A stretch of 64,000 bases of DNA from Burkholderia sp. Bp8992 (lineage in GTDB: Bacteria; Pseudomonadota; Gammaproteobacteria; Burkholderiales; Burkholderiaceae): positions 62,001 through 126,000 of the forward strand of contig NZ_QTQI01000001.1 in NCBI RefSeq assembly GCF_003853705.1. Reading direction: 5' to 3'. Below are positions 6,743 through 11,627 of this stretch, one piece after another. The position numbers and the translations under genes were made by a program. The notes under the pieces were generated by a model. It worked only from the letters and a program-made list of their open reading frames with translations. It had not been told where the DNA came from and made no database searches. How positions within the stretch are numbered: position 1 is the stretch's first letter; every line of letters starts with the position of its first letter.

Positions 6743-6796
6743 TGATTTACCGATTCGTGAATATCTTGTTACGATTTTTTCCCTGATTTACCGATT
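6743..6796 (+). repeat. 13-bp exact direct repeat (TGATTTACCGATT x2)
   Basis: TGATTTACCGATT occurs at 6743-6755 and again at 6784-6796, start-to-start 41 bp (about four helical turns), so both copies face the same side of the DNA. The first copy continues into ACCGATTCGTGAA, which recurs with one change (ACCGATTCGGGAA) at 10058-10070 before bceB. It is likely a tandem operator for a regulator. Confidence 0.65.
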
Positions 6797-6798
6797 TT

Positions 6799-6825
6799 CG
6801 GCAGCAATTCTTGCGATTGTTGCCG
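6799..6825. promoter_or_regulatory. 10-bp inverted repeat next to the direct repeats
   Basis: CGGCAGCAAT (6799-6808) pairs with ATTGTTGCCG (6816-6825) with one G-T mismatch and a 7-nt loop. No T-tract follows. It could be an operator or an RNA hairpin in the leader of a transcript starting upstream. Confidence 0.5.
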
Positions 6826-7003
6826 ACAAGGGCCGGATCAGCCTGTAACAGCTTATTTCAGGCCATTCTTCATACCCCGCGGAGCCCCGCCAGACGGGCC
6901 TTTGCAGCGGCGGGCATAAAGATCTCGCAAAAAAATTCAAGCGTAAATAGATTGCGCATCAATGGCTGGATGTTTCAGTGCGTAACATTAAGTCATTGTC
7001 ATA

Positions 7004-7031
7004 TTGAGATAAACCCTGAGGATGGTATGCT
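7004..7031 (+). promoter_or_regulatory. Candidate sigma-70 promoter of the DUF4096 gene
   Basis: TTGAGA (7004-7009) and TATGCT (7026-7031) are separated by 16 bp and lie about 200 nt before the ATG at 7234, which would give a long untranslated leader. It was found by eye and other start sites are possible. Confidence 0.4.
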
Positions 7032-7233
7032 TCGTGCACAAAAATTCCCACATTGGAGTGAGACCGTGACTTGTGCGCCATTGCCGGGAATTGCGGCACC
7101 GTGAAAGTGCGGTGTCGCCCGGTATGCACAACACCGGATAACCATAATGTGCAACCTGGCCGCCGGGCGACGCGATTGTGTCGCGAAGGCGCCGCCAATC
7201 GCAGCCCGGCCTGGCTGCGTGGAGAGATCTACT

Positions 7234-8175
7234 ATGTTCTTCGATGAGCTTAACGATGAAGAGTGGGTTCGTCTTTCAACGCTGATCGCCGATGAACCCA
7301 TCCGGCTGAACCGTCGTGGGCGTCCACGCGCCGAACCGCGCGTCGTCGCGAATGCGGTGCTGTGGATCCTGACGACCGGTGAAGCCTGGTCCAAGCTGCC
7401 CGGCCGCTATCCGTCCGGGCCGACGTGCCGTCGCCGCTATGAAGAGTGGCTGGCGAACGGCACGCTGCTGAAGATGATCGACGTACTGACCCAGTTCAGC
7501 GGGCGCACGTTCGCGTATATTCCGCCGCCGCCGGAGGCGGCAGTGCCTGCGCGTCGCGCGGAGCCCGTGCCCGACAACGATCGCTTGCGCGGCGTGTTCT
7601 GGCAAAACCCCGAGTCGTGGCAATTGCCGGTTGCGCAGGCAAACGTTTGGGAGGGCGAAGGTGCGTCGATCAGCGCGATGCAGGTCGATGCGGTGATCGA
7701 CCGGTCCGACGCATCGTTCGTGGTGCCCGGGGCGCCGGCGGCCGAGTTGCGCCATGCACGCGCATCGGCGACGAGCTTCGCCGCGGCCGAACCGCAAGTC
7801 GACGAGTATCGCGGCTATACGATCAGCGGCATCGCGCAGCCCGTGCAGAACCTGATGTATCGCGCGTGGGCCGAGATCTCGCAGGGCGACCGGCGCGTGG
7901 AGCGCTCGGGCCTCATCGGCCCGCGCTTCACCGATGCCGAGGAAGCCGAGCAGTTCGCGCTCGACTGGGCGCGCCAGTGGATCGATCGCCATGGCGCGAG
8001 CGACGAGCCGGCGCGCGAGCCGCAAAGCGAGGTGCTGGTCGGCTTGTCCGCGCTGGCGCGTGCGGAATCGGACATCAAGCGCTTCATCGCCGAGCGTCAC
8101 GCGGGCGCGATGTCCGAAAGCCGCAACGATCCCGTGCAGTCGGAACGTCGCGAGTACGCGTACCGCGTCGGTTGA
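7234..8175 (+). CDS. DUF4096 (IS5-type transposase DNA-binding) domain protein, putative exapted regulator
   Basis: A 313-residue protein; the ATG at 7234 has GGAGAG 8 nt upstream. Residues 1 to about 85 match the N-terminal DNA-binding domain of IS5-family transposases (DUF4096): LNDEEWVRLSTLI, RRGRPRAEPRVVANAVLWIL, GEAWSKLPGRYPSGPTC. The DDE nuclease domain is absent. In its place are a Pro/Ala-rich linker and a conserved-looking domain at about residues 185-260 (DEYRGYTISGIAQPVQNLMY, then an acidic helix). No terminal inverted repeats surround the gene. It lies beside the exopolysaccharide cluster behind an elaborate AT-rich promoter, so a domesticated transcription factor is the best reading. 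Its target is unknown; the bce genes are candidates. Confidence 0.75.
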   Translation: MFFDELNDEEWVRLSTLIADEPIRLNRRGRPRAEPRVVANAVLWILTTGEAWSKLPGRYPSGPTCRRRYEEWLANGTLLKMIDVLTQFSGRTFAYIPPPPEAAVPARRAEPVPDNDRLRGVFWQNPESWQLPVAQANVWEGEGASISAMQVDAVIDRSDASFVVPGAPAAELRHARASATSFAAAEPQVDEYRGYTISGIAQPVQNLMYRAWAEISQGDRRVERSGLIGPRFTDAEEAEQFALDWARQWIDRHGASDEPAREPQSEVLVGLSALARAESDIKRFIAERHAGAMSESRNDPVQSERREYAYRVG

Positions 8176-8251
8176 TCGCGATGTCGATGCAATGCGCGGG
8201 CCGCCGTGTGCCACGACGTCCGCGCAGTTGCCCAGTCTCTCCATGGCCGCG

Positions 8252-8286
8252 TTGCCGGGAGCGCTGCCACGACGGCAGCGCTCCCG
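8252..8286. terminator. Bidirectional hairpin between convergent DUF4096 gene and bceA
   Basis: A perfect 15-bp stem (8252-8266 with 8272-8286) and a 5-nt loop sit 76 nt after the DUF4096 gene stop and 12 nt beyond the end of bceA. The following GTTTGAT gives only a weak T-run. Its position between two converging genes makes a shared terminator likely. Confidence 0.7.
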
Positions 8287-8298
8287 GCGTTTGATGCA

Positions 8299-9825
8299 TC
8301 ACTGGCGGCCGTAGGTATCGTCGAAGCGGACGATGTCGTCCTCGCCGAGATATGCGCCCGATTGCACTTCGATCAGTTCGAGCGGCATCTTGCCCGGGTT
8401 CTCCAGGCGGTGCGAGACGCCGAGCGGGATGTACGTCGATTCGTTTTCGGACAGCAGGAACGTTTCGTCGCCGCGCGTGATGCGCGCGGTGCCGCGCACG
8501 ACGATCCAGTGCTCGGCGCGGTGGTGGTGCATCTGCAGCGACAGTTGCGCGCCCGGCTTCACGACGATGCGTTTCACCTGGAAGCGCTCGCCCATGTCGA
8601 CCGAGTCGTAGTGGCCCCACGGGCGGTGCACCTTGCGGTGATCGGTGGCTTCCGCGCCGCGTTGCGCCTTGATGCGTCCGACGATCTTCTTCACGTCCTG
8701 CACGCGCGATTTGTCCGCGACGAGCACGGCGTCGGGCGTTTCGACGACGACGAGGTTCTGCGTGCCGACGCAGGCGACGAGCCGGCTTTCCGAATGCGCG
8801 AAAGTCGATTCGGCGCCTTCGAACAGCACGTGGCCGCGGCCGACGTTCTCCGCATCGTCCTTCGGCGAGATCTGCCAGATCGCGTCCCACGAACCGACGT
8901 CCGACCAGCCGGCGTCGAGCGGCACGACGACGCTCTCGCACAGTTGCGGCAGGCTCGCGAGCGGCTCCATCACCGCATAGTCGATCGAGTTCGACGGCGA
9001 AGCGGCGAATGCGTCGCGATCGACGCGGAAGAAATCGCCGTCGTCCCTCCCTTGTGCGACCGCCTGTTCGCACGCGGCGTAGATCGCCGGTTCGAGCTGG
9101 CGGATCGCCTTCAGCCAGACCGAGGCGCGCACGATGAAGATCCCGCTGTTCCACCAGTATTCGCCCGACGCGACGTACTGCTGGGCGAGTTCGAGGTGCG
9201 GCTTCTCGACGAAACGGTCGAGGCGGCGCACGTCGAGGCTGCCCGTCGCGGCGTCACCGAGCGGCGCGCCGACGCGGATGTAGCCGTAGCCGGTTTCCGC
9301 GTGCTTCGGCACGATGCCCATCGTCGCGATCTTGCCTTGCGCGGCGCAGTGCACGCCGGCCGCGACGGCTGCGTGAAAGCGCGGCAGGTCGGCGACCGCA
9401 TGGTCGGCCGGCATCACGGTCATCACCGCATCGTTGCCGTCGGCGACGAGCCGCAGCGCGGCGAGCGTCAGCGCGGGCGCGGTATCGCGGCCGAGCGGCT
9501 CGAGCATGATGGTCGCGTTCTTGGCGGTCAGGCGCAGCTGTTCGGCGGTCGTGAAGCGGTGATCCTCGCCGCACACGATCAGCACGTCGTCGTTCAGCGG
9601 ATGGACGGCCTCGAGGCCGTCGAGGCGCAGTGCGGTCGACTGCAGCAGCGAATGATCGCCGAGCAGGCCAATGAGCTGTTTCGGAAAACGTTCGCGCGAC
9701 ATCGGCCACAGACGCGTGCCGGAGCCGCCGGCAAGAATCACCGGTTGCACCGCGAGGCGCGTGCCGGTGGCGGGGGCGGCGGAAGAAGCATGGCGCGTTT
9801 CGGCTGCCACGGCCGGAGCATTCAT
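8299..9825 (-). CDS. bceA: Bifunctional mannose-1-phosphate guanylyltransferase / mannose-6-phosphate isomerase (cepacian)
   Basis: A 508-residue type II PMI/GMP enzyme that makes GDP-mannose for the exopolysaccharide. The nucleotidyltransferase domain opens with PVILAGGSGTRLWPMSRERFPKQ (seen as ILAGGSGTRLWPMSR then FPKQ), followed by FVEKP. The C-terminal cupin isomerase domain (about residues 375-500) contains RPWGHYDSVD, KRIVVKPGAQLSLQMHHHR and EHWIVVRGTA with the metal-binding histidines. The start MNAPAVAAE at 9825 is chosen because GGAG lies 9 nt upstream; an in-frame ATG exists at 9921. It is divergent from bceB across a 428-nt regulatory gap. Homology to BceA/AlgA/WbpW type enzymes is strong. 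Confidence 0.93.
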   Translation of the reverse strand: MNAPAVAAETRHASSAAPATGTRLAVQPVILAGGSGTRLWPMSRERFPKQLIGLLGDHSLLQSTALRLDGLEAVHPLNDDVLIVCGEDHRFTTAEQLRLTAKNATIMLEPLGRDTAPALTLAALRLVADGNDAVMTVMPADHAVADLPRFHAAVAAGVHCAAQGKIATMGIVPKHAETGYGYIRVGAPLGDAATGSLDVRRLDRFVEKPHLELAQQYVASGEYWWNSGIFIVRASVWLKAIRQLEPAIYAACEQAVAQGRDDGDFFRVDRDAFAASPSNSIDYAVMEPLASLPQLCESVVVPLDAGWSDVGSWDAIWQISPKDDAENVGRGHVLFEGAESTFAHSESRLVACVGTQNLVVVETPDAVLVADKSRVQDVKKIVGRIKAQRGAEATDHRKVHRPWGHYDSVDMGERFQVKRIVVKPGAQLSLQMHHHRAEHWIVVRGTARITRGDETFLLSENESTYIPLGVSHRLENPGKMPLELIEVQSGAYLGEDDIVRFDDTYGRQ

Positions 9826-10253
9826 GATGGCACTCTCCACGGTTGAAGTCAGTGCCTGTCGTTGTAGCATGAAGTAAATCGACAATAAAACCGGGCCCAT
9901 TGCCTGATATTCATCGGGCATTCACCAGGAAAAATTTTCCGCGCTAGCATCGGTTGCAAATAAAAAAATAAAAAATAATTCCGCGCATTGTTGTCAATGG
10001 CTTGCCTGCAAAGGGCTGGCGGCGACCGTAAAGTTTCCGAAAACTTCTCGATTTCCGACCGATTCGGGAAAACGTGCCGAATTAATTCAGAAAGATCGCG
10101 GCAAGTATTTCCGATTATTTTTCGAAATACTTGTGCGCTTGAGGGGGAATTTTCTTGTCGCTTCAATAGCGTCATGCAACGTTTGAATCGAGTGTGCGGC
10201 ACGGGTCGCACGAGGAGCTGTTCGGCAAACGCCTGTTCAAAGAGGAAGCAGAC
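9826..10253. promoter_or_regulatory. Divergent bceA/bceB regulatory region
   Basis: 428 AT-rich bases with no real gene. TTTCCGA occurs exactly at 10034-10040, 10052-10058 and 10108-10114. Dyads are AAGTTT-CCGA-AAACTT (10031-10046) and AAGTATTTC/GAAATACTT (10103-10111 with 10124-10132, 12-nt spacer). ACCGATTCGGGAA at 10058-10070 nearly matches an element at 6749-6761. A cluster like this suggests cooperative binding by one regulator; which one cannot be told. Confidence 0.65.
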
Positions 10254-11627
10254 ATGTTGAGCGTGCTGGCGAGAGTCATCGATATCGCGATGGTCGTAGC
10301 GGGGGCGCTGATCGCCGCCGCGCTGCACGGCGGCAGCATCTGGCTCAACGACCTGCAGCGCACGATGATGCTGTTCGATTGCCTGCTCGTCGTCGTGTGC
10401 TTTCCCGCATTCGGCATCTACCAGTCCTGGCGCGGCAAGCGTCTCGTCGGGCTGGTGGGGCGGGTCGTGTTCGCGTGGCTCCTGGTCGAGCTCGCGGGCA
10501 TCCTGCTGAGCTTCAGCTTTCACCAGTCGGGTGACCTGTCGCGGCTGTGGCTGGGTTACTGGGCGCTCGTGACGATGGCGCTGCTCGCCGGCTCGAAGGC
10601 CTGCGTGCACGTCGTGCTGCGGCAACTGCGCCGCGGCGGCTACAACCTGAAGGCGGTCGCGATCGTCGGCGGTACGCCGGCGGCGCGGCGGCTGATCGCG
10701 CAGATGCGGGCGCGGCCGGAAGCCGGTTTCAACCCGGTGTGCGTGTACGACGAAAGCGAAGTGCCGGGCGAAGTGGCGCTCGACGACGTGCGCATCGAGC
10801 GGCAGTTCGAATCGCTGGTGTGGCTGGTGCGCAGCCGCGCGATCAGCGAGCTGTGGCTCACGCTGCCGATCACCGAGGAGCGCCGGATCCACCACATCGT
10901 GACGGTGTTCCGCCACGACTTCGTGAACATCCGCTTCATCCCGGACGTGCGCACGCTGTCGTTCTTCAACCAGGAAGTGGTCGAGGTGCTCGGCGTGCCG
11001 GCGATCAACCTCGCGGCGTCGCCGATCACCGACGTGCGGATCCTGCCGAAGTTCGTGTTCGACCGGCTGTTCGCGCTGGCGGCGCTCACGGCGCTTGCGC
11101 CGGTGATGGTGCTGATCGCGGGCCTGATCAAGCTGACGTCGCGCGGGCCGGTGTTCTTTCGCCAGAAGCGCAAGGGCATCGACGGGCACGAGTTCGAGAT
11201 CTACAAGTTTCGCTCGATGAAGGTGCACCAGGAAGTGGCCGGGCAGGTCACGCAGGCGACCAAGAACGACTCGCGCGTGACGCCGGTCGGCCGGTTCCTG
11301 CGCCGCACGAGCCTCGATGAACTGCCGCAGTTCATCAACGTGCTGAAGGGCGAGATGTCGGTCGTCGGCCCGCGTCCGCATGCGCTCGCGCACGACGACA
11401 TCTACAAGGATCTGGTCAAGGGCTACATGTTCCGCTACCGGATCAAGCCGGGCATCACCGGATGGGCGCAGATCAACGGCTATCGCGGCGAGACCGACCA
11501 GATCGAGAAGATGATGGGACGCGTGAAGCTCGATCTGTACTACATGCAGAACTGGTCGTTCTGGCTCGACATCAAGATCGTCGTGCTGACGCTCTGGAAA
11601 GGCTTCACCGGCAGCAACGCGTACTGA
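10254..11627 (+). CDS. bceB: Undecaprenyl-phosphate glucose phosphotransferase (priming enzyme)
   Basis: A 457-residue polyisoprenyl-phosphate hexose-1-phosphate transferase. Four or five N-terminal membrane segments (about residues 1-130) precede a Rossmann-like central region ([17 protein letters not shown]) and another membrane helix (about 275-300). The C-terminal catalytic sugar-transferase domain has [44 protein letters not shown] and the closing [16 protein letters not shown]. It starts cepacian synthesis by placing glucose-1-phosphate on the lipid carrier. The frame is uninterrupted here, whereas the ET12 lineage strain J2315 is known to carry a bceB deletion that makes it non-mucoid. 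First gene of the plus-strand bce operon. Confidence 0.93.

Follow-up and report, generated by a model that had tools for sequence, protein, structure and literature searches.

The region analysed here lies in a 64,000-nucleotide stretch of the genome of Burkholderia sp. Bp8992 (hereafter the window, to whose positions all coordinates refer). It comprises a gene for a DUF4096 protein, the divergent genes bceA and bceB beside it, and the intergenic DNA upstream of each (Table 1). The bce genes belong to the system for cepacian, a main exopolysaccharide of the Burkholderia cepacia complex and of plant-associated Paraburkholderia. We find that a short box, TTNCCGAT, occurs twice upstream of the DUF4096 gene and once in the bceB promoter, that it is conserved among Burkholderia loci, and that it recurs in a second, unlinked bce cluster (bce-II). 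A search with the DUF4096 protein gave a match in all 65 Burkholderia genomes, scoring above a 136-residue paralogue in 64 of them, and its closest relatives are from species of the B. cepacia complex. Loci were then taken for a conservation alignment of 53 DUF4096-upstream regions and 51 bceA/bceB gaps, with the window counted in both; inclusion required a DUF4096 identity of at least 77%, which set apart 12 more distant loci of the genus (L083–L094).

Table 1 Features of the DUF4096 and bceA/bceB region, with positions in the window and conservation among aligned Burkholderia loci
Feature	Position	Strand	Remarks
TTNCCGAT box, copy 1 upstream of DUF4096 gene (within the 6743–6755 repeat)	6747..6754	+	TTACCGAT in 51/53 loci, TTACCGGT in 2
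TTNCCGAT box, copy 2 upstream of DUF4096 gene (within 6784–6796)	6788..6795	+	TTACCGAT in 52/53 loci; 41 bp from copy 1
Sigma54-type −24/−12 box of DUF4096 gene, TGGTATGCTTCGTGCA	7023..7038	+	Exact in 49/53 loci
Conserved untranslated leader of DUF4096 gene	7039..7233	+	Hairpin adjoins ribosome-binding site
DUF4096 gene, 313 aa	7234..8175	+	IS5-type DNA-binding domain (6–80), disordered linker, putative CV_2116-like domain (187–257)
bceA, mannose-1-phosphate guanylyltransferase/mannose-6-phosphate isomerase	8299..9825	-	Start at 9825 set by eye
AAATCGACAAT upstream of bceA	9876..9886	-	Invariant, 51/51 loci
ACCGATTCGGGAA, bceB-side 13-mer first proposed	10058..10070	+	ACCGATT half unconserved; whole 13-mer in 3/51 loci
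Inverted box-like copy ATTCGGGAAA (complement TTTCCCGAAT)	10062..10071	-	Full 10-mer in 28/51 loci
TTNCCGAT box, bceB promoter	10108..10115	+	51/51 loci; N is T in 46, A in 3, G in 2
AATACT, −10-like hexamer	10126..10131	+	9 nt past CCGATT; 51/51 loci
bceB, priming glycosyltransferase	10254..11627	+	Divergent from bceA

An element common to both promoter regions had been proposed in the original prediction, on the basis of a 13-bp direct repeat, TGATTTACCGATT, at 6743 and 6784, of ACCGATTCGTGAA at 6749–6761 with a 12/13 match, ACCGATTCGGGAA, at 10058–10070, and of three TTTCCGA copies at 10034, 10052 and 10108. All of these strings are present at those positions. A common element does exist, but it is TTNCCGAT (10108–10116 at bceB) and not the 12/13 element: the site at 10058–10070 is ruled out, as it is conserved in only three of the 51 loci. 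The expectation that the motifs would be conserved across Burkholderia bce loci therefore fails there and holds at the other sites. The bceB box is the third TTTCCGA copy and sits inside a long invariant block of the 51-gap alignment; this copy is exact in 46 loci and holds TTNCCGATT, conserved in all 51, while the first and second are exact in 11 and 4. Upstream of the DUF4096 gene, the full TGATTTACCGATT 13-mer is kept in 28 (copy 1) and 25 (copy 2) of the 53 loci, and the base N of the box copies is A. The base that differs between the promoters is thus the base that is free within one promoter, which would fit one common binding site. In terms of simple counts, the TGATTTACCGATT pair is unusual, with two places found at up to two mismatches against 0.22 expected (5 of 100 shuffles reach two). 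For ACCGATTCGKGAA there are four places at up to two mismatches, two of them exact, against 2.45 expected, and because 25 of 100 shuffles reach four, this pair by itself proves little. TTTCCGA occurs at eight places in the window against 5.2 expected (16 of 100 shuffles reach eight). A palindrome at 10064–10082 was rejected as a regulon motif: TTCGGGAAANCGTNCCGAA occurs in only nine of the 65 genomes, with eight of the nine places within 5 kb of a DUF4096 orthologue and one (G037) on a separate contig.

The box recurs in the bce-II cluster, which was located through homologues of GDP-mannose dehydratase (bceN included) using TIGR01472 in 11 of 12 genomes, ten stretches being examined. The gap adjoining bceO contains TTTTTTGCCGATTTCTTTTCCCTAGAAT in six Burkholderia loci (L146–L149, L151 and L152), and it was not found in the bceO gap of L150. 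Roughly 8 kb away, the gap between a bceS-like and a bceT-like gene contains TTTRCCGATTTTTTTCTGATA in four of six loci, with TCGATT replacing CCGATT in the other two. Both gaps show a −10-like hexamer 9 nt past CCGATT (TAGAAT at bceO, TAGTTT on the bceT side), matching the layout at bceB. The pattern of box plus hexamer, TTTNYCGATT-N9-TANNNT, was searched in 65 genomes and its bce-II sites were counted by eye in 54 of them (G002–G055, with G001 and G056–G065 outside the count). The gene context was verified in six genomes and the sites in the remaining genomes were assigned by sequence and spacing. We see a bceO-type site in 50 of the 54, a bceT-type site in 52 and both in 49, and the reversed control gives 0 or 1 match per genome. 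The sole genome with neither site, G042, also lacks a DUF4096 orthologue and has a BceB match of just 51%, so the whole system is missing there. A different partial loss is seen at L079 (G025), where the bceA match is partial and bceB was not found (the best match in the genome has 47% identity); this genome still keeps the DUF4096 gene with both of its upstream boxes, and the two bce-II sites. Directly 3' of the bceT-side box, upstream of the bceT-like gene (L264–L269), lies a conserved open reading frame of 47 residues (L265) with a hydrophobic stretch and no Pfam match, whose start and first residues are alike in all six loci.

In principle, these promoters could look alike only through being AT-rich, H-NS-bound intergenic sequence in which matches arise by chance. 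The G+C content of the gaps is low (47% and 55%, the window as a whole having 68%), H-NS is a repressor of the bce genes according to excerpts of PMC8231446, and the 13-mer at 10058–10070 proved unconserved. However, equal composition does not suffice for a match: among 400 letter-permuted versions of TTTNCCGATT, two matched the bceA/bceB gap equally well, none the bceO gap and none both, in a test made on alignment subsets of 16, 16 and 6 sequences (16 for the bceA/bceB gap and 6 for the bceO gap). The free base is also identical within and between promoters, and we regard chance likeness as very unlikely. Among conserved windows, TTNCCGAT is expected 0.011 times in the bceA/bceB gap and 0.008 times in the bceO gap, and is seen once in each. 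Shuffles of single gaps back the box less strongly than the permuted motifs. At up to one mismatch, the observed two matches were reached by 20 of 500 shuffles for the bceA/bceB gap of the window and by 30 of 500 for the bceO gap of G001; with no mismatch, the counts were 0 for bceA/bceB and 1 for bceO (11 of 500 shuffles).

At the bceB, bceO and bceT-side promoters, the box lies just 5' of the −10 and there is no good −35. Alternatively, the box could be a promoter element recognized by RNA polymerase, through an alternative sigma factor or as an unusual spacer for sigma70, and not an operator. The constant distance of 9 nt from box to hexamer at all three promoters speaks for it, as does the resemblance of GCCGAT to the −10 of sigma28 promoters. 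The consensus for sigma28 (FliA) is TAAA-N15-GCCGATAA; inspection by eye of the bceO gap of L149 and L151 revealed no TAAA at the expected distance. The box copies at the DUF4096 gene also argue against such a reading, as they have no hexamer at 9 nt and are separated from the sigma54 box by more than 220 bp. Overall, we judge a polymerase-read element to be unlikely.

The DUF4096 gene has its own, different type of promoter element, a −24/−12 box with the GG-N10-GC signature of sigma54-dependent promoters. A looser form of this box occurs in 59 of 65 loci of the genus and, in other genera, in 38 of 40. No GG-N10-GC in the bceA/bceB gap is conserved in at least 80% of the 51 loci. A sigma70-like TTGAGA-N16-TATGCT (7004–7031) overlaps the sigma54 box, with one such match found against 0.6 expected. 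An ATG at 7147 was rejected as the start of the DUF4096 protein because indels in the leader disrupt its frame. The strongly conserved leader ends in a hairpin, CGCAGCC...GGCTGCG, and is predicted to form 14 base pairs overall, two of which have changes on both sides. A search of the window against Rfam gave no match that reached the gathering threshold.

The protein encoded behind this promoter is related to transposases without being one in full. It matches PF13340 (DUF4096) over residues 6–80 with 66.1 bits, against a cut-off of 34.3, whereas the IS5 transposase profile NF033580 scores 63.2 bits, short of its cut-off of 110, and is covered at positions 4–83 of 258 only. No other transposase domain was detected by Pfam at an E value of 0.1. 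The DUF4096 protein is therefore like the N-terminal DNA-binding domain of IS5-family transposases, but unlike these it has no detected catalytic part, a different C-terminal domain and a fixed seat beside bceA and bceB. A structure model (mean pLDDT 62.1, pTM 0.35) is good for the two domains only, the linker being of low confidence. Structural comparison of the model gave matches for the C-terminal domain, and residues 187–257 may resemble the CV_2116/DUF6566 domain (structure 2kon); a sequence search of the PDB gave no match to the protein at an E value of 1. The helix-turn-helix region is almost invariant across 35 homologues, and in other genera, Paraburkholderia and Caballeronia included, the gene lies beside bceA and bceB in 37 of 40 loci.

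Published expression data bear on the same gene. In excerpts of PMC5491218, mutation of ntrC gives a log2 change of −4.1 for BCAM0853, the B. cenocepacia orthologue, and of −5.2 for BCAL1500, likewise named a transposase. Relative to an rpfF mutant, the wild type has 3.1-fold more BCAM0853 RNA and 10-fold more of its protein, and bceA is 8.3-fold higher (excerpts of PMC3502180). BCAM0853 follows both NtrC and BDSF in these published data. Excerpts of PMC7378592 suggest that the DUF4096 gene encodes a transposase and may have mobilized the cluster. Among the titles and abstract openings surveyed, none gives a regulatory role for the DUF4096 protein or mentions the box, and no direct cepacian regulator is named in the excerpts of PMC5491218, PMC3502180, PMC8231446, PMC7378592 and PMC5295037 used here.

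Taken with the sequence features, these data suggest a cascade, which we hold to be evenly poised between right and wrong. Under nitrogen shortage, NtrC with sigma54 would raise expression of the DUF4096 gene from its −24/−12 box at 7023–7038. TTNCCGAT would be where a single regulator of the cepacian system binds, and the likeliest such regulator is the DUF4096 protein, in which an IS5-type transposase DNA-binding domain is joined to a new C-terminal domain. This protein would bind the boxes, activate both bce clusters, which are unlinked, and in Burkholderia also feed back on its own gene. The original prediction had likewise named the DUF4096 protein, and as a binder of the box it is plausible, given a helix-turn-helix domain without a catalytic part, family-wide synteny and published co-regulation. 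What the sequences themselves show is the conserved boxes, how the promoters are laid out, the sigma54 box, the synteny and the absence of a catalytic domain; binding, its activating sign and the feedback are inferred. The proposed system would resemble exopolysaccharide regulators controlled by NtrC and sigma54 in its −24/−12 box and in the NtrC dependence of the orthologue (excerpts of PMC5491218). It would differ in that the DUF4096 protein is not an enhancer-binding protein and, if the model holds, acts one step downstream at sigma70-like promoters. If true, the cascade would account for two unlinked bce clusters responding jointly to nitrogen and quorum signals; a gene that carries a transposase annotation would then be a candidate pathway regulator.

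The chief competing explanation accepts the box as real and common to these promoters, but has it bound by a regulator encoded elsewhere, with the DUF4096 gene as a further target whose protein has some other role. Loci of other genera lend this weight, as they keep the box at bceB (as CCGATAC) and lack the one upstream of the DUF4096 gene. Excerpts of PMC3502180 and PMC8231446 also report that quorum sensing (BDSF, CepR) and H-NS influence the bce genes. Against it stand the place that the DUF4096 gene holds beside bceA and bceB in other genera, and the co-variation of the box with the turn of the helix-turn-helix (residues 57–62) in several lineages. For the latter comparison, 82 loci of other genera were reduced to 65 by removing 7 without a usable bceB start and 10 duplicates; L190 was scored as lacking the box, although its box sits just beyond the search range. 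Of the 34 loci whose turn reads GRYPSG, 28 have CCGAT at the bceB box, as against 1 of the 31 that read ARYPSG or SHYPTV (Fisher 2e-11, a value not to be taken at face value because the BceB tree holds few independent changes). In most ARYPSG loci the homologous bases are CGAAAC. Within Burkholderia, 11 of the distant loci L083–L094 have a bceB start, and by eye six of these read CCGATT at the bceB box, L091, L092 and L094 read CCGAAT, and L089 and L090, whose turn is SRYPSG, have no box. On a BceB tree of 78 rows, thinned from 120 by dropping most Burkholderia rows with both states, there are five turn changes and six box changes; independent pairs give a mean of 2.4 to 2.6 concordant changes and practically none opposite. 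The co-variation points the right way, but it is weak evidence, with too few independent lineages. A regulator encoded elsewhere is, in our view, possible yet rather doubtful.

Several observations weigh against the cascade with the DUF4096 protein as its regulator. No such box was found in the 900 bp upstream of the DUF4096 gene in 39 out of the 40 loci of other genera; the self-regulation first predicted would have the two Burkholderia copies as its basis, and could be of either sign. At the bceO site, CCGAT is absent in all four loci of other genera examined. The sign test on independent turn and box changes is not significant, and there are exceptions to the co-variation: L210 has ARYPSG with a box, L118, L119, L205, L209 and L224 have GRYPSG without one, and L091, L092 and L094 combine GRYPSG with CCGAA at bceB. 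In the conserved-window test, the bceT gap has a strict count of 0, since TCGAT stands in two of its six loci. Taken alone, the box lacks specificity, as TTTNCCGATT has 59 matches in G001 and 42 in G013 (3 and 4 for the reversed pattern). Finally, one box-plus-hexamer match recurs beyond the bce loci: TTTCCCGATTTTSGCAGCGTAATTT is conserved ahead of, or at the beginning of, an unrelated gene (L270, L271 and L277) that we take to be Mrp-like, and it may be either another target or a coincidence. With these points in mind, we put forward only tentatively, at somewhat short of even probability, the broader proposal that a transposase DNA-binding domain has sat beside the bce genes since the ancestor of Burkholderia, Paraburkholderia and Caballeronia. 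It would there have become a dedicated nitrogen-to-exopolysaccharide activator acting through TTNCCGAT boxes in sigma70-like promoters, with helix-turn-helix and boxes changing together in several lineages.

Some further sites resemble the box. Of the inverted copy in the bceA/bceB gap, the end CGGGAAA (10065–10071) is present in all 51 loci. The complement of the site upstream of bceA, ATTGTCGATTT, is close to the box with TC in the place of CC, and may be an extra, degenerate site on the bceA strand. The site upstream of the DUF4096 gene has the form of a dyad in the distant loci L087, L088 and L091–L094, with TTTACCGATT ahead of its near-inverse ATCGGAAA. The 136-residue DUF4096 paralogue, which consists of the domain and a short tail, was rejected as a carrier of the box, two half-site patterns being unmatched in the 600 bp upstream at nine loci (L095–L103). 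It has a sequence of its own upstream, TGGCACGCTTCGTGC, in five of seven loci (L095–L101), with variants in the other two.

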